Of a stretch of 64,000 nt of DNA, positions 38,804 to 44,424 are shown piece after piece. Each line of letters opens with the position of its first letter. Position 1 is the first letter of the stretch. The position numbers and the translations under genes are program-made. The notes under the pieces are model-generated. The model was given only the letters and a program-made list of their open reading frames with translations, made no database searches and was not told where the DNA came from. The stretch is from contig NZ_VCMZ01000001.1 of assembly GCF_006352475.1 (NCBI RefSeq), forward strand, positions 434,001-498,000, written 5' to 3'. Source of the stretch: Acinetobacter pullicarnis (GTDB lineage: Bacteria; Pseudomonadota; Gammaproteobacteria; Pseudomonadales; Moraxellaceae).

Positions 38804-39652
38804 TTAGCCGAATAAGGCGCTAAAGTGTTGAATCAATTTAGAATCACTATTTTTTTGCCAGGCGATAGAAATATCACAGCTTTCGATGTTGGTGAGTGCC
38901 AGACATTGCAGTTGTCTGTGCTGTGCTTCAGCTAAAAATGGACTTGGAATCACACTAAAGCCAAGGTGTTGTTGGATCGCATCTAGGGCCAAGCTGTAGG
39001 ACTCAATCGCACATTGACGGTGCACGCAAATTTGCTGTTGTGCCAACCAGTTTTTTAGCAACAGTTCATGCATGCTGGGGCCACCATAGCGAAATAAAAT
39101 TTGTTCTGCTGCATGCAATTTAAAGTCTTGCCATGAGGCGGCATTGAAGACCAAATAAAGGGTTTCTTGAATAATGACCCGACTGTGTAATTGGGGGTGT
39201 TGTACGTTGGCATCGATAAAAATGAGATCAAACTCGGCAGCCAGTAATTTTTCTAACAGCAGTAGAGAAGAACAACAAGAGATATTCACTTGTACCGCAG
39301 CATGCGTTTTTAAGAACTGAATGGTCTGTTGCTGAATATATTTTTCTAACACGATATTCAGCGTCCCAATATTTAAATCGCCAACCAATTGATGCTGATT
39401 AAATAAGTCTTGGCATTTTTTACTTTGTTTGACCAAGGCTTTGGCTTCGATATAAAAGGCGCGTCCTTCGGGCGTAATACTGAGTTTGCGTTGTTTCCGA
39501 TTAAAGAGGGTTACTTTTAGAATATCTTCTAGGTCGTGAATACGTGCAGTAATATTGGAGGGAACACAATGCATTTTTTCAGCTGCTGCGTAAATGGTGC
39601 CTTCTTCAACCAGTGCACAAAACAGTGCAAGTTGTGAAAATTTAATTGCCAT
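38804..39652 (-). CDS. LysR-family regulator at the end of the microcin export operon
   Basis: 282 residues. The N-terminal helix-turn-helix (FSQLALFCALVEEGTIYAAA, residues 5-24, then EKMHCVPSNITARIHDLE) and following linker are typical of LysR proteins; the rest is an effector-binding domain. It starts 32 bases after the ABC exporter stop on the same strand with GGAG-like sequence upstream, so it is probably part of the microcin transcript, though it could have its own promoter. LysR genes are more often divergent from their targets, so this placement is unusual. The target genes and effector are unknown. Confidence 0.85.
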   Translation of the reverse strand: MAIKFSQLALFCALVEEGTIYAAAEKMHCVPSNITARIHDLEDILKVTLFNRKQRKLSITPEGRAFYIEAKALVKQSKKCQDLFNQHQLVGDLNIGTLNIVLEKYIQQQTIQFLKTHAAVQVNISCCSSLLLLEKLLAAEFDLIFIDANVQHPQLHSRVIIQETLYLVFNAASWQDFKLHAAEQILFRYGGPSMHELLLKNWLAQQQICVHRQCAIESYSLALDAIQQHLGFSVIPSPFLAEAQHRQLQCLALTNIESCDISIAWQKNSDSKLIQHFSALFG

Positions 39653-39684
39653 TTCCCGCTCCTTTTAAGTGTTGTGTACTGCCT

Positions 39685-41787
39685 TTAACGTGCAATTTGA
39701 ATAATGCGATCGGCACTATCAATGCTTGATTGGCGATGGGCTATAAATATTCGAGTGATATTTAAAGCGCGAATCGATTGGTTGATGATGGCTTCATTTT
39801 CGGGGTCCAGATGGCTGGTGGCTTCATCCATAAATAAGATCGCAGGTTGTCGATACAGCGCTCTGGCAATGAGGAGGCGTTGCACTTGCCCCCCCGATAA
39901 ACTCGATCCAAGTGCGCTGATCAGGGTTTCAAAGCCCATCGGCATATGCATGATTTCGTCATAGATATTGCAGTTCTTGGCACATTCAATAATGCGGGCT
40001 TCATTTTTATGCAGATCAAAGCTAGAAATATTGTCGGCAACCGAGCCTGCAAATAATTTGTCATCTTGTAATACACAGGCAATGGATTGGCGATAATTGT
40101 TGAGACCGACTTTATAAATATCGTGCTCATTAAATAATAAAATGCCTTTTTCTGTGATGAGTAAACCGCTCATGAGTTTCATCAAGGTTGATTTGCCTAC
40201 GCCTGATGGCCCGACAATGGCGACACTCTCACTGGCTTTAATCAGGAGGCTAAGGTTTTCAATAATGGGTGCGGAAAAAGCATCATAGGCATAACTGAGG
40301 TTTTGGACTTCAAAGGAGGCGGCTTGATTGGGCAGTGCCAAGATGCGACTTTCTTGTTGTGGTTCGGGAGGACTGAGCGCAATATCGGCCAAACGTTCAT
40401 GATGTAACGACAGCATGCGTAGCTCTAGGATTAAATTGATGAGTTGCGCTGAACGTTCTGAAAATTGACCACGATAAATATTAAAGGCCACAAACATTCC
40501 GAGCGTGAGTTGGTGATCAATCACCATCGATGCACCCAACCATAAAATCAAGATTTGATCGAGTGTGGTGATCAATGAATTGACCCCTGCATACAGCATG
40601 TCTAAGCGCGCAACGCGTATGCCAGCATTGGTGGTGTCGATATTAAGATTCATCCAAAATTGCGCACGGTTGCGATTGAGGCTTAAGGCTTTTAAGGTGG
40701 AAATCGCATAGAGGCTTTCCATAAAATGTGAGTTGGCTTTGGCCTGTTTTATAATCTGTTCTTCAGCAGCTTGGCGGTAAAGTTGAAAAGTCAGTACACG
40801 TAGCAGGACATAGATCAGCGTGAAAGCCAGCACCACCCACAGCAACCATCCCGCATAGAGATACATCATGATCATTAAGCCGATCGACATCAGACAGTCG
40901 ATGAAGCCGTTGACCAAACCTGTGCTTAAGGTATTACGAACAGCATCAAGCGAGAGAAATCGAGATTGAATGTCACCAGGATTACGCTTCTGAAAATAAT
41001 GCAGTGGGAGCCTGAGTAGATGTTGAAAAAAACCATGATTCCATTGCACACTTAAAAAGGTGTCCATGAGCAAGGTCATCCAAGCACGCAGCATTGCCAC
41101 CAAGGTGCGGAAAATAATAAAACAGAATAAGCCCAAGCAAATCAAGGTGAGTAGGTCGTGATCGGCAGCCAAAATCACATGGTCCATGACCACTTGTGTG
41201 CCTATTGGCAATAAAATATTAATAGCTTCAAGCACCACAGATAGTGCCAAAATTCGCAGCAGAAAGCCTGGGAATCCATTGATATTTTTTAGCAAACTAC
41301 GGAAGTGTAGTTTTTGGCGTTCGGTTTCTCTGGCAAAATTTGGATTGGGCCAAAGCTCTAACGCGACGCCAGTAAAATGCTGCGAGAGCTCTGGAAAAGA
41401 CAGGCTGTAGCGACCAAAAGCAGGGTCGTGAATAATGGCTTTGTTGCGCTTGATGCCAACCAACACCACAAAATGGTTTAAGTCCCAATGTAAAATACAG
41501 GGCCGTTTTAACAGGTGGATTTCGTCTAGGGCCAAAGAGAGCGGGCGGCTGTCCAAACCAAGTTTATGTGCAATATCAATTAATATCGCTAGAGTTGCGC
41601 CGTGTGATGAGATGCCATATTTTTGTCTGAGACTAAATAGGTCAATGTCCTTGCCCAAGAAACGACAGATCATCACCAAACACGCCAAGCCACATTCAGC
41701 TGCTTCGGTTTGTAACACCTGCGGAATAGTTGGTCTTAGATTAAACTGTAGTTTTTTTTTGAGTTCAGCAATGAGGTCTTTATTCAT
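39685..41787 (-). CDS. Peptidase C39-containing ABC exporter of the microcin/bacteriocin (CvaB-like)
   Basis: About 700 residues. It has an N-terminal C39 protease domain with catalytic Cys in QTEAAECGLACLVM near 26-40, His in LNHFVVL near 106 and Asp in HDPAFG near 122, then a six-helix ABC membrane domain (about 160-440) and a nucleotide-binding domain: Walker A GPSGVGKST, signature SLSGGQVQRLLIARAL, Walker B ILFMDEATSHLD. Such proteins cleave double-glycine leaders and export the mature peptide. The ATG at 41787 with AGGTG upstream is preferred over the GTG at 41799, giving an 8-base overlap with the HlyD gene. It acts with the HlyD adaptor and an outer-membrane TolC-type protein encoded elsewhere. 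Confidence 0.94.
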   Translation of the reverse strand: MNKDLIAELKKKLQFNLRPTIPQVLQTEAAECGLACLVMICRFLGKDIDLFSLRQKYGISSHGATLAILIDIAHKLGLDSRPLSLALDEIHLLKRPCILHWDLNHFVVLVGIKRNKAIIHDPAFGRYSLSFPELSQHFTGVALELWPNPNFARETERQKLHFRSLLKNINGFPGFLLRILALSVVLEAINILLPIGTQVVMDHVILAADHDLLTLICLGLFCFIIFRTLVAMLRAWMTLLMDTFLSVQWNHGFFQHLLRLPLHYFQKRNPGDIQSRFLSLDAVRNTLSTGLVNGFIDCLMSIGLMIMMYLYAGWLLWVVLAFTLIYVLLRVLTFQLYRQAAEEQIIKQAKANSHFMESLYAISTLKALSLNRNRAQFWMNLNIDTTNAGIRVARLDMLYAGVNSLITTLDQILILWLGASMVIDHQLTLGMFVAFNIYRGQFSERSAQLINLILELRMLSLHHERLADIALSPPEPQQESRILALPNQAASFEVQNLSYAYDAFSAPIIENLSLLIKASESVAIVGPSGVGKSTLMKLMSGLLITEKGILLFNEHDIYKVGLNNYRQSIACVLQDDKLFAGSVADNISSFDLHKNEARIIECAKNCNIYDEIMHMPMGFETLISALGSSLSGGQVQRLLIARALYRQPAILFMDEATSHLDPENEAIINQSIRALNITRIFIAHRQSSIDSADRIIQIAR

Positions 41788-43072
41788 GATCTGAATCACC
41801 TACACTTTTTGAAATGCCATAAAGCGGTGAGAAGATCCATTGGTAGAGTGGTCTTTTTTCTAGAAAAAGTGTGGCTTCAGTGGTCATGCCAGAACTGAGA
41901 AGTAATGATTTTCCTTTCCAGTCGATGCTGTTTTTCTGCGGTTGAATGTTGACTTTATAATAGGCACTGTCGTTATTTTTAGGGGCGCTGCCATAACGCA
42001 AGAGCTCATTGTTCGAGGCCGGAACATTGGAAATCGCTGTGATTTTCCCTGCAAACTGACCAAATTTTTCATAGGGAAAAGCCTGATAGCGCAAGTTAAC
42101 GGGATCACCGATTTTGATATAGGGGATGCTGCTATTGGGCAGCCATAAAACAATGGAAAATTGCGTCTTTTTATGCGGAGAGAGTTGGACCAAACTATCA
42201 CCAGCATTCACCATTTGGCCTTGGCTGACCGCAATGCTTTCAATATAGCCGGCTTGCTGCGCTTGTATGACCACAACATGCTCGGCATTGGCATCGTTAT
42301 ATTGACGTTCAAGCGCACTGTGTTGAATTTGATACTGTAAAATTTGCTGCTCAAACTCGGTTGCCTTAGAGATCACTTCTTTTTCGGCATCATTGATTTG
42401 GATATCTTGTTGGATCAATTGGGCTTTAAGATTGTCAATGCTGCTTTGCCGCTCATAGTAAAGATAACGCAGTTGATTGACTTGCTCACGATTAACCAGC
42501 CCTTGCTTTAGATATTGGGCATAATCCTTGGCGATTTTCTGCATTTCTTGTAGACCACTTTGCGCGTCAACGTAGCGGCTGATCGCTTGCTGATTGGCGA
42601 TTTTATATTTTTCAAGTTGGGTATTTAGACTCGCGACATGAATGCGTTTATTTTCCTTTAAGGTCTGCATAATCACCTCAATATCGTTCAACTGTTTTTC
42701 AATTGCCTGTAGGGTATTTTGACTGGCATTGCCATTGCTGGTATTGCGGCTGACATCCAGCTTAAATAGGGGATCACCCTTTTGGACATATTGTCCGGTG
42801 CTGTAAAAACTGTTGAGTATGAAACCCTGCTGCGGTGCGAAAATATTGACGGGATGGGGGATTGAAATCACTTCGCCAGTCACACTGACGCGACGAGTAA
42901 ATTGAGCGAAAATAATGAAGACCAAAAATAATGCAATGATCAAGGCTGATCCCAATCCAAACCAATAGGCTGGAATTTGCGATACTAATATTGCATCGCC
43001 CAACCAGCGGTTTTTTTTAACCTGAATCACTTCTGGTCTAAATATTTGATTTGATGGATTGTCACGGTCCAT
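41780..43072 (-). CDS. HlyD-family periplasmic adaptor of the microcin exporter (CvaA-like)
   Basis: About 430 residues. An N-terminal cytoplasmic stretch (FRPEVIQVKKNRWLG) precedes one membrane helix (about 32-57). A biotinyl-lipoyl-like half motif (PVNIFAPQQGFILNSFYSTG) near residue 78, a long helical hairpin (about 115-265) and the second lipoyl half (VIQAQQAGYIESIAVSQGQM) near 270 are the membrane-fusion layout, followed by a beta-barrel domain. RPEVIQ and LSSGMTTEATLFLEKRPLYQW match CvaA-like adaptors. The ATG at 43072 is chosen over an upstream in-frame TTG. It overlaps the exporter gene, so the two are translationally coupled. Confidence 0.92.
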   Translation of the reverse strand: MDRDNPSNQIFRPEVIQVKKNRWLGDAILVSQIPAYWFGLGSALIIALFLVFIIFAQFTRRVSVTGEVISIPHPVNIFAPQQGFILNSFYSTGQYVQKGDPLFKLDVSRNTSNGNASQNTLQAIEKQLNDIEVIMQTLKENKRIHVASLNTQLEKYKIANQQAISRYVDAQSGLQEMQKIAKDYAQYLKQGLVNREQVNQLRYLYYERQSSIDNLKAQLIQQDIQINDAEKEVISKATEFEQQILQYQIQHSALERQYNDANAEHVVVIQAQQAGYIESIAVSQGQMVNAGDSLVQLSPHKKTQFSIVLWLPNSSIPYIKIGDPVNLRYQAFPYEKFGQFAGKITAISNVPASNNELLRYGSAPKNNDSAYYKVNIQPQKNSIDWKGKSLLLSSGMTTEATLFLEKRPLYQWIFSPLYGISKSVGDSDHE

Positions 43073-43189
43073 AAAGATCAATCATTGATTGGATAAGGCT
43101 TAAAACTATAATCCTAAGATGCGTGGATGCTGTAACTGTTTCAGGCCATTTGATACAGGCTTTTGCAAGCTGTGTAGCCAAGGGAGTTA

Positions 43190-43218
43190 AAGCCCCAATA
43201 TGAAATTGAGGCTTTATG
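43190..43218 (-). terminator. Hairpin between the microcin gene and the exporter genes
   Basis: AAAGCC-CCAAT and ATTG-AGGCTTT arms (about 43194-43214) form a stem with one or two mismatches and a short loop. It has no long T run on the minus strand, so it may be a partial terminator or processing site that lowers exporter expression relative to the peptide. Confidence 0.4.
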
Positions 43219-43284
43219 AAGGGGAGGAAATGCTGAAACTTGCATGGGTATTAATAATAGAAATTGACAATATACAAGCAGGGT

Positions 43285-43557
43285 TTATTTAGCTGCCCCT
43301 AAACCAGATGAAGACAAGACCGCTGTGCCAATGGCCTTACCGATTTGTAAACCTAAGTTTATTACGCCGGTACCAATAGCCTTACCAACTGCTTCACCGA
43401 TTTTGGAATTGCCTGTTAGACCGAATTGTTGACCAATCTGCCCTGAAATTTGACTGCCGATTTGGCCACCAACTTGACCGGCAATAGTGCCGAGTGCATC
43501 AGATAAAATGCCAGCACCTGAGACATATTGGATTTGTTCTGTACTTAATTCTTTCAT
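43285..43557 (-). CDS. Putative class II microcin/bacteriocin precursor with double-glycine-type leader
   Basis: 90 residues. The N-terminus MKELSTEQIQYVSGA is a classic double-glycine leader (conserved EL, hydrophobic Ile9 and Val12, then G-A instead of G-G), so cleavage after Ala15 would release 75 residues. The mature part is very rich in Gly (19 of 75) with repeated GxxxG-type spacing (GQVGGQIGSQISGQIGQQFG), two near-copies of GKAIGT, no Cys and few charges. This is a glycine-zipper composition expected to insert in membranes. It is just upstream of the HlyD adaptor and the C39 exporter on the same strand. The ATG has GGAGA about 12 bases upstream. No immunity gene is evident next to it. 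It could also be a colony-behaviour peptide rather than a toxin. Confidence 0.85.
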   Translation of the reverse strand: MKELSTEQIQYVSGAGILSDALGTIAGQVGGQIGSQISGQIGQQFGLTGNSKIGEAVGKAIGTGVINLGLQIGKAIGTAVLSSSGLGAAK

Positions 43558-43900
43558 AGATTACATATTCTCCATATTGGTTGTGAAAGAAACGTCGTTA
43601 ATTTGAAACTAACGTGCAGCAGAAACTAACCTGATTTCATCGGAGCTAAAAGTGATAAAAAATGAACGATATTATTCACTTTTTATTTTATTTGTATAAT
43701 TAGTTTTTATAAAACAATTGCTTGGTTGTATTTTTGATTTTTGTTTATATTAATTTTTTATGTGCTTTCTCATTTTAAGTTAAACTAACTTTTGAGGCGA
43801 TATACTGCGGTAGAGCGCAATAAATATTAAGAGATGCAGGCTTATGTCCACTTTAAAATAAGCAGAAAATAGTGGATTTGATTAATAAGATAGGTGGTGT
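43558..43900 (-). promoter_or_regulatory. AT-rich upstream region of the microcin gene with repeated AAACTAAC motifs
   Basis: No gene longer than a dozen codons is visible. The octamer AAACTAAC occurs at 43606-43613, 43623-43630 (17 bases apart) and 43782-43789; the last lies in AAGTTAAACTAACTT (43777-43791), a near-perfect inverted repeat. The DNA between 43660 and 43770 is extremely AT rich. The region must hold the microcin promoter, and the repeats are candidate regulator sites; a precise -35/-10 could not be fixed. Confidence 0.5.
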
Positions 43901-44424
43901 GGTTTTTCGAAAGGCAACCTCTCCCGGCCTCTCCTTAAAAGGAGAGGAGAAATGCGTTAAGGCTATATTTCCTCTTCCTTTGGGCATAGGTATCTACACA
44001 AATATTTAAGAAATATATGTAGTCGAAATATGTAATCTATTTGAGCTTAATACAAGGTATTTAAGTCCTGTTTAGATTTGGAATTTAGGGCTGAATGCAA
44101 ATTTCATTGAATTTCAGAAATCCCCAATCTCCCCTAACCCCTCTTTTCCAAAGAGGGGGACTTTTTTGGGAATTCAAAGCCTAGTTTATGCTACACAACG
44201 CTCCTTCCTTAGAAAAAGGAAGGTTGGGATGGATTGCTTTGAATCGTAATCCATATATCAAAAGATGTGTAGATACCTATGCCCTTTGAGATGAGGGTTA
44301 GGGAGAGGGGAGTCATAAGGTACGGATGGTTTTTCGAAAAGCAACCTCGCCCAGCCTCTCCTTAAAAGGAGAGGGGAAACGTACTGGGTTATTTTCCCTT
44401 TGGGATGAAGGTCAGGGAGAGGGC
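43901..44424. repeat. Hairpin-rich intergenic repeat block between microcin gene and hisIE
   Basis: Two 50-base direct copies (43901-43950 and 44328-44377, about 90% identical) each contain the palindrome CCTCTCCTTAAAAGGAGAGG. Between them lie a perfect 19-bp inverted repeat, GGGCATAGGTATCTACACA (43982-44000) and its complement (44266-44284), and two further hairpins: CCCTCTTT/AAGAGGG (44138-44157, followed by a T run) and CCTTCCTT/AAGGAAGG (44203-44223). No open frame of note. It looks like accumulated or nested copies of small non-autonomous repeats. A related hairpin occurs at 56854-56875. Confidence 0.8.

Follow-up and report, generated by a model that had tools for sequence, protein, structure and literature searches.

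A stretch of 64,000 nucleotides from the genome of Acinetobacter pullicarnis (contig NZ_VCMZ01000001.1, positions 434,001 to 498,000), referred to below as the window, was analysed for a putative peptide secretion locus. Four genes lie there in a row on the reverse strand and encode, in this order, a peptide precursor with a double-glycine (GG)-type leader, a CvaA-like adaptor of the HlyD family, a CvaB-like ATP-binding cassette (ABC) exporter with a C39 peptidase domain and a LysR-type regulator (Table 1). The order, the common strand and all four positions are as a first-pass annotation, made from the sequence alone, had put them, and profile matches bore out its reading of the adaptor, the exporter (PF03412 at 1.1e-33) and the regulator. 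The gap between the peptide gene and hlyD, about 0.2 kb, holds a stem-loop, a detail beyond that annotation. As members of well-known families, the four genes are predicted to work as a peptide export cassette. Relatives of the peptide were found beside the same type of exporter in Enterobacterales, with no conserved immunity gene next to them.

Table 1. Features of the peptide export cassette and its upstream region (positions in the window)
Feature	Position	Strand	Description and basis
Peptide precursor gene	43285..43557	-	90 aa, glycine-zipper peptide; open reading frame and sequence reading, homologues
Leader MKELSTEQIQYVSGA	43513..43557	-	15 residues with GA (double-glycine-type) end; predicted C39 cut leaving 75 residues
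Stem-loop 3' of the peptide gene	43188..43216	-	Folding of two slices; counterparts in JUb89 and G094
Promoter-region footprint GTTCATTTTTTATCACTTTTA	43647..43667	-	Candidate site for a regulator, about 90-110 bp 5' of the peptide start
HlyD/CvaA-like membrane fusion protein	41780..43072 from ATG (TTG start 43081)	-	430 aa; PF13437/PF16576
C39-peptidase ABC exporter, CvaB-like	39685..41787 from ATG (GTG start 41799)	-	PF03412, PF00664, PF00005
LysR-type regulator, last cassette gene	38804..39652	-	PF00126 and PF03466
Dispersed repeat copy, about 320 bp, in upstream non-coding DNA	43973..44308	not assigned	Own-genome sequence search

The double-glycine-type leader noted in the first pass was found to end in GA, and cleavage behind this GA by the C39 domain would leave a mature peptide without Cys, with a net charge of about +2 and with the C-terminus SSSGLGAAK. 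This mature part contains 8 GxxxG pairs against 4.4 expected from its shuffles (p 0.027), and the enrichment recurs in four relatives with p values of 0.002 to 0.047; it is modest in one sequence and consistent over five. For the longer pattern GxxxGxxxG the p value of the window copy is 0.08. Mature residues 6-36 form a 31-residue zipper stretch free of proline and charge, and a second zipper is broken by E40 and K44. Comparison with Pfam and NCBIfam gave sub-threshold matches only (PF04357 at 0.29 and NF051885 at 0.19, respectively). An AlphaFold model computed from five sequences consists of two helices, residues 6-44 and 51-84, with a mean predicted local distance difference test (pLDDT) score of 52; a fold search with this model was dropped because the model was too weak.

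To place the cassette within the genus, we searched other Acinetobacter genomes; several of the search tools may omit records closely similar to the own genome, and close strains are outside their coverage. With the peptide as a single sequence, 2 of 149 genomes were matched, the own genome and one referred to here as G094. A five-row profile matched 8 of 175 genomes at E <= 0.05; the own genome, G094 and Acinetobacter calcoaceticus JUb89 gave values below 1e-30, and the remaining five (E 5e-4 to 0.03) matched in the leader region only. Among the 174 other genomes of the genus, two (G094 and JUb89) carry the four-gene cassette, with the genes in the same order. The JUb89 proteins are 73% (exporter), 60% (HlyD), 51% (peptide) and 68% (LysR) identical to those of the window, and the G094 proteins about 66-67%, about 50-51%, 59% and 39%, respectively. 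In the leader, 12 of 15 residues are identical in JUb89 and 9 of 15 in G094, and the helix-turn-helix (HTH) of the LysR protein is conserved at 47 to 55 of 66 residues. Exporter matches at 1e-60 were obtained in 14 of 149 genomes including the own; the sole close one is that of G094, and the others are 29-50% identical.

The cassette sits between hisIE and a UvrD-like helicase gene (both read from the sequence by eye), in an insert of 5757 bp, about 1.2 kb of which is non-coding and the rest taken up by the four genes. The same interval is shorter than 150 bp in 107 of 131 Acinetobacter genomes, these 131 being the genomes present in the match listings of both flank genes (175 genomes searched for each gene, 150 places used from each listing); 22 of the other 24 have both flank genes on one contig, with a gap of 184 bp to more than 100 kb. 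The dispersed repeat in the non-coding part has 50 matches in the own genome including itself, 12 of the others being longer than 200 bp at an identity of at least 84%. In JUb89 the cassette occupies the same hisIE-helicase interval, and in G094 it lies at another chromosomal site, between topA-like and leuC-like genes (by eye). Horizontal movement of the cassette, which forms part of the explanation preferred below, appears to us about as probable as not. Two further genomes, G126 and G102, have a lone LysR gene at the hisIE-helicase site (L137:9086-9946 and L138:9039-9923), 49% and 47% identical to the cassette LysR, with no peptide or exporter nearby within the 19 kb fetched. This would fit either a loss of peptide and exporter or a LysR gene that was there first; the G094 copy, which carries LysR at a different site, favours the regulator being part of the cassette. 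Near the window site, just beyond hisIE, another genome (G077, L031:3066-8133) carries a cupin-like gene (by look), a GG peptide, HlyD and C39 genes, the exporter gene being split into two frames.

The relationships of the exporter were examined in a tree of 27 exporters, a selection from a locus set that comprised the best 80 of 460 relatives; L039 and L141 were omitted for want of a usable exporter frame. All 27 exporters aligned share Cys32, His105, Asp121 and Gln26 (numbered from the ATG), of which we take the first three to be the C39 catalytic residues; this agrees with the intact protease domain of the first-pass annotation. The window, JUb89 and G094 exporters form one group (support 100/100) inside an otherwise Enterobacterales clade of 13 rows, where they stand beside those of Limnobaculum and Enterobacillus (84/80). 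The clade includes a Salmonella plasmid locus with a peptide that presumably is MccN-like. The exporter groups with Enterobacterales exporters of CvaB/MccN type, and a split with 100/100 support separates it from the eight other Acinetobacter C39 exporters in the tree, some of them from loci with cupin/JmjC genes. An outer-membrane channel gene is not part of the cassette; the own genome has 26 domain matches to PF02321 (TolC family), none of them within it.

Several further loci from the exporter clade were not taken as loci of the peptide family: three Yersinia loci have a different GG peptide, a pattern search found none in those of Rahnella, Ewingella and Hafnia, and other GA/GG peptides are present in those of Pantoea and Kosakonia. 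In the Klebsiella pneumoniae locus absent from the tree (NZ_CP129856.1, L141:2828-7124), the exporter is 55% identical to that of the window, and two glycine-rich GG-leader peptides (121 and 122 aa) adjoin HlyD, C39 exporter and fimbrial genes; this is possibly a Cdz-like system. A different GA-leader locus was seen in Acinetobacter (L022:3970-12191, L025:4763-13012, L027:10294-15884 and L029:6505-14795). It encodes a 107-112 aa peptide, HlyD, a C39 exporter and an FAD cholesterol-oxidase-like protein, about 600 aa long, whose start is twin-arginine-like, and TatC-like and outer-membrane-efflux-like genes are present in L022, L025 and L029, not in L027; PF09129, PF00902 and PF02321 were tested on L022, and the assignments in L025, L027 and L029 are by look.

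The results of searching public proteins with the five-row profile showed that the peptide has a wider family, with 58 relatives at E <= 0.001 among 2048 candidates. An organism name is attached to 17 of the 58; one is the JUb89 peptide itself, and the other 16 come from Enterobacterales, namely Gilliamella, Limnobaculum and Budviciaceae, Enterobacillus, Cedecea, Pluralibacter, Kosakonia, Intestinirhabdus, Klebsiella michiganensis, Serratia, Dryocola and other Enterobacteriaceae, all of which we take to be members of that order. Some of the 58 are named 'Bacteriocin' in UniRef, and none has a Pfam domain. When 25 of them were aligned with the window and G094 peptides, M1, L4, S13, G14, G16, D20 and G30 were invariant in the 27 rows. 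We concluded that the peptide frame is more than a chance one, because it is intact in both Acinetobacter genomes with a close exporter, because the differences among the three cassettes peak at third codon positions (synonymous divergence, dS, being saturated for several of the non-peptide genes), and because the profile has these 58 relatives. The first-pass annotation had tied its reading to the survival of the small frame in relatives that keep the exporter; besides the two Acinetobacter genomes, seven further exporter-linked loci have it intact.

These seven loci belong to Limnobaculum, Enterobacillus (two loci), three Gilliamella-type genomes (G319, and G565 and G557 with the same gene neighbourhood) and a K. 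michiganensis plasmid from a fruit fly. On the plasmid the peptide lies about 2.4 kb from the HlyD and C39 genes; there are transposase genes around, and the intervening frames look like transposase pieces. Within an even sample of the order, 394 Enterobacterales genomes including the centre genome Limnobaculum, the 27-row profile matched 7 at 1e-6; at 1e-4, there are 5 matches in Limnobaculum and 7 in Enterobacillus. Exporter matches at 1e-60 were present in 7 of 8 genomes that carry family peptides, six of these at 55-64% identity to the window exporter and one (G443) at 42%, and G424 has no match at that threshold. Solo GA-leader peptides with the same flanking genes and no adjoining exporter were seen in two Enterobacterales genomes (L172:5911-6213 and L173:6843-7160); one of the two, G518, has an exporter elsewhere, the other being G424.

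We then compared the small open reading frames (ORFs) of ten exporter-linked loci, those of the window, JUb89, G094, Limnobaculum, Enterobacillus (two), G319, G565, G557 and K. michiganensis. The comparison took in ORFs of 30-250 aa, reaching about 1.5 kb past the peptide and exporter genes, and those lying by more than half inside an open frame of more than 250 codons were left out. All cross-locus matches at 1e-4 were to the peptide, to the frame antisense to it, or were two short matches between G319 and G565. In the window, ORFs of at least 20 aa around the peptide were listed, and those of at least 30 aa other than the peptide had no match in the other loci except antisense shadows. The three nearest genes on each side of the insert (among ORFs of at least 150 aa) are all longer than 250 aa, and no further gene of recognisable kind was found in the 5.76 kb insert; the content of the insert is accounted for and leaves little space in which an immunity gene could have been missed. 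Two candidates from other loci were rejected. One, a 62-aa ORF between tandem Gilliamella-type peptides, aligned over just 29 residues with a 34-aa ORF of one other genome, and the third had no match to it at 1e-4. The other is a hydrophobic ORF of 52 aa that directly precedes one Enterobacillus peptide; none of the other loci matched it at 1e-4. It is possible that immunity is unlinked or locus-specific.

The label of a class II microcin secretion locus, given in the first pass, therefore has to be divided. A small GG/GA precursor, a C39 exporter whose presumed catalytic residues are intact and a membrane fusion protein (MFP) are present and conserved together, and a TolC-type channel is encoded in the genome. 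A cognate immunity protein was found neither near the peptide, in the insert and its near flanks, nor conserved across the ten loci, unlinked immunity not having been searched for. The definition of class II microcins, as excerpted from PMC9746304, names five components, among them a cognate immunity protein of 30-250 aa near the microcin. Because the definition includes this protein and none was found linked, the label of a class II microcin in the strict sense is not supported.

Candidate control elements are shared by the three cassettes. The footprint upstream of the peptide gene is identical at 19 of 21 positions between the window and G094, and likewise between JUb89 and G094; in 300 trials with first-order random sequences, 0 and 1, respectively, were as good. 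The stem-loop 3' of the peptide gene has folding energies of -15.1 and -17.4 kcal/mol in two slices (z -2.5 and -2.1), and its counterparts have z -3.4 in JUb89 and z -4.8 and -3.3 in G094. In G094 the 3' arm passes into a T-rich stretch, in JUb89 it ends in five T, and the window copy has neither; a terminator scan did not list the window stem-loop. The stem-loop may uncouple the transcription of the peptide from that of the exporter, and may raise peptide output above exporter output. Promoter prediction gave nothing outstanding (8 promoter-like sites against 12.8 in shuffles), and a search for a LysR operator common to the cassette and the solitary LysR genes in G126 and G102 gave weak matches only.

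The closest described systems include the Cdz-like ones. According to the parts of PMC5380434 used here, a single peptide is predicted for most Cdz-like systems, and identifying their immunity proteins was difficult; the CdzC/D peptides of Caulobacter crescentus form a pair, have only small hydrophobic residues between the zipper glycines and are accompanied by CdzI, an immunity protein with three predicted transmembrane domains. The window resembles them in that a type I exporter adjoins a small glycine-zipper peptide whose leader is of the G[G/A/S] type. Its precursor falls at 90 aa within the 60-151 residues given for such peptides, and the zipper stretch at mature residues 6-36 shows the described freedom from proline and charge, so that the published description, as far as excerpted, largely fits. 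Further criteria of that source are a short charged or polar C-terminus, for which the SSSGLGAAK end of the window peptide is an ambiguous candidate, retention on the cell surface and killing on contact. Unlike CdzC/D, and compared by description only, the window has one peptide, Q/S/T within the zipper, no CdzI-like neighbour and a linked LysR gene. Mcc17978 of Acinetobacter baumannii ATCC 17978 (mcaABCD) likewise pairs a GA-leader peptide with HlyD and a C39 exporter; as excerpted from PMC10333792, its immunity gene mcaB is cupin-like, and the main text of that paper does not contain the word LysR. By contrast, no cupin gene stands between peptide and hlyD in the window, and its exporter falls outside the group of cupin/JmjC-carrying Acinetobacter loci, which serve as a proxy since Mcc17978 itself is not in the tree. 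With class II microcins such as MccV and MccN and their CvaA/CvaB machinery, the window shares leader type, C39 exporter and adaptor, and differs from them in its core and in the lack of a recognised immunity gene. Among the titles and abstract beginnings of open-access papers listed by the searches, none deals with this cassette or this family of peptides, the scope excluding subscription papers and supplementary tables; some family members may already stand as Cdz-like candidates in supplementary survey lists.

The reading that we prefer, to which we give about an even chance, is that of a membrane-active, Cdz-like or microcin-like peptide without linked immunity. The precursor would be made with its GA leader, the C39 domain of the exporter would remove the leader, and the 75-residue peptide would leave the cell by way of the ABC exporter, the HlyD adaptor and a channel of TolC type whose gene lies elsewhere in the genome. 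Outside, it would most likely insert into or aggregate on the membranes of neighbouring bacteria in a bacteriocin-like manner. Protection of the producer would not depend on a linked, conserved immunity protein and could come, for example, from the lack of a receptor or from an unlinked gene, and the linked LysR protein probably controls the peptide promoter. We infer cleavage, export, membrane activity, target and regulation alike. This bacteriocin-like reading is favoured because of the kinship of the exporter, the peptide relatives beside the same exporter type, the Klebsiella pneumoniae exporter with its two neighbouring glycine-rich peptides, the 58 profile relatives and the 'Bacteriocin' names of some of them in UniRef, the intact protease residues, the Cdz-like features, the occurrence of the cassette in three genomes and the TolC-family proteins of the genome. 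Several observations weigh against it. Across the ten loci, for linked genes, no small ORF except the peptide is conserved at 1e-4 beyond one genome pair. Several of the Limnobaculum and Enterobacillus copies are solo or in tandem, with no exporter in the 9-10.5 kb fetched; the GxxxG enrichment of the window copy itself is modest (p 0.027), and its AlphaFold model is of low confidence (mean pLDDT 52). As a single query against 5.8 billion proteins, the window peptide gave 3 candidates, none at 0.001, and against plasmids no match up to E 1.

Some of these points would also suit a secreted non-toxic peptide, one whose glycine-zipper helices assemble on the surface or matrix of the producer or which reports cell density, its expression being tuned by LysR in Acinetobacter; we regard this as possible, at a clearly lower grade. 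The lack of a conserved immunity gene in ten loci, the several unlinked or tandem copies per genome, and the conserved LysR HTH together with the promoter-region footprint would agree with it. A precedent exists in the GG-motif small proteins EbfG1-4, which, as excerpted from PMC4997328, together with the peptidase transporter PteB enable biofilm formation in Synechococcus, an unrelated organism likened here by description. However, the related exporters resemble those of bacteriocins, and the sporadic distribution (strong matches in 3 of 175 Acinetobacter genomes, and matches in 7 of 394 Enterobacterales genomes) and the variable cores are typical of competition genes. The missing immunity gene would likewise suit a peptide acting on the producer's own population by autolysis or fratricide. 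This is proposed for the Naps of Neisseria gonorrhoeae, GG bacteriocin-like peptides with a C39 peptidase which, in the excerpted text of PMC11798529, do not kill competitor species and promote death in stationary phase. We hold such self-lysis to be improbable, since mature Naps are short (36, 16 and 31 aa) and cationic and come with a putative immunity gene, napI (excerpts of the same source), whereas the window peptide has 75 residues, a charge of about +2 and no such neighbour. A classical class II microcin, its immunity gene unlinked or locus-specific and unrecognised, would accord with the published definition in leader, peptidase-containing ATP-binding cassette transporter (PCAT) and MFP (PMC9746304, as excerpted). 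It would require unlinked or unrelated immunity in all ten loci, and with a mature peptide free of Cys and no further recognisable gene in the insert we consider it improbable as well. That the cassette is a decaying or unexpressed remnant might be suggested by the rarity of strong peptide matches in the genus and by the LysR gene standing alone at the same site in G126 and G102, but it is scarcely credible given that three species keep all four frames intact, that their differences peak at third positions and that the protease residues are preserved.

Gram-negative peptides secreted with GG leaders tend to be filed as microcins or bacteriocins, and the immunity gene is the usual genomic argument for toxicity. 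Tentatively, and against the bacteriocin-like reading that we favour, the peptides described here might represent an undescribed family of C39-exported glycine-zipper peptides without dedicated immunity, multi-copy in some hosts with solo genes served in trans by one exporter, provided with its own LysR regulator in Acinetobacter, and used for surface assembly, kin interaction or signalling and not for classical killing. A peptide family of Acinetobacter and Enterobacterales that keeps the pairing of exporter and peptide, yet shows no conserved linked immunity gene, would mean either that producers survive a membrane-active peptide without linked immunity, or that some so-called bacteriocins are something else.

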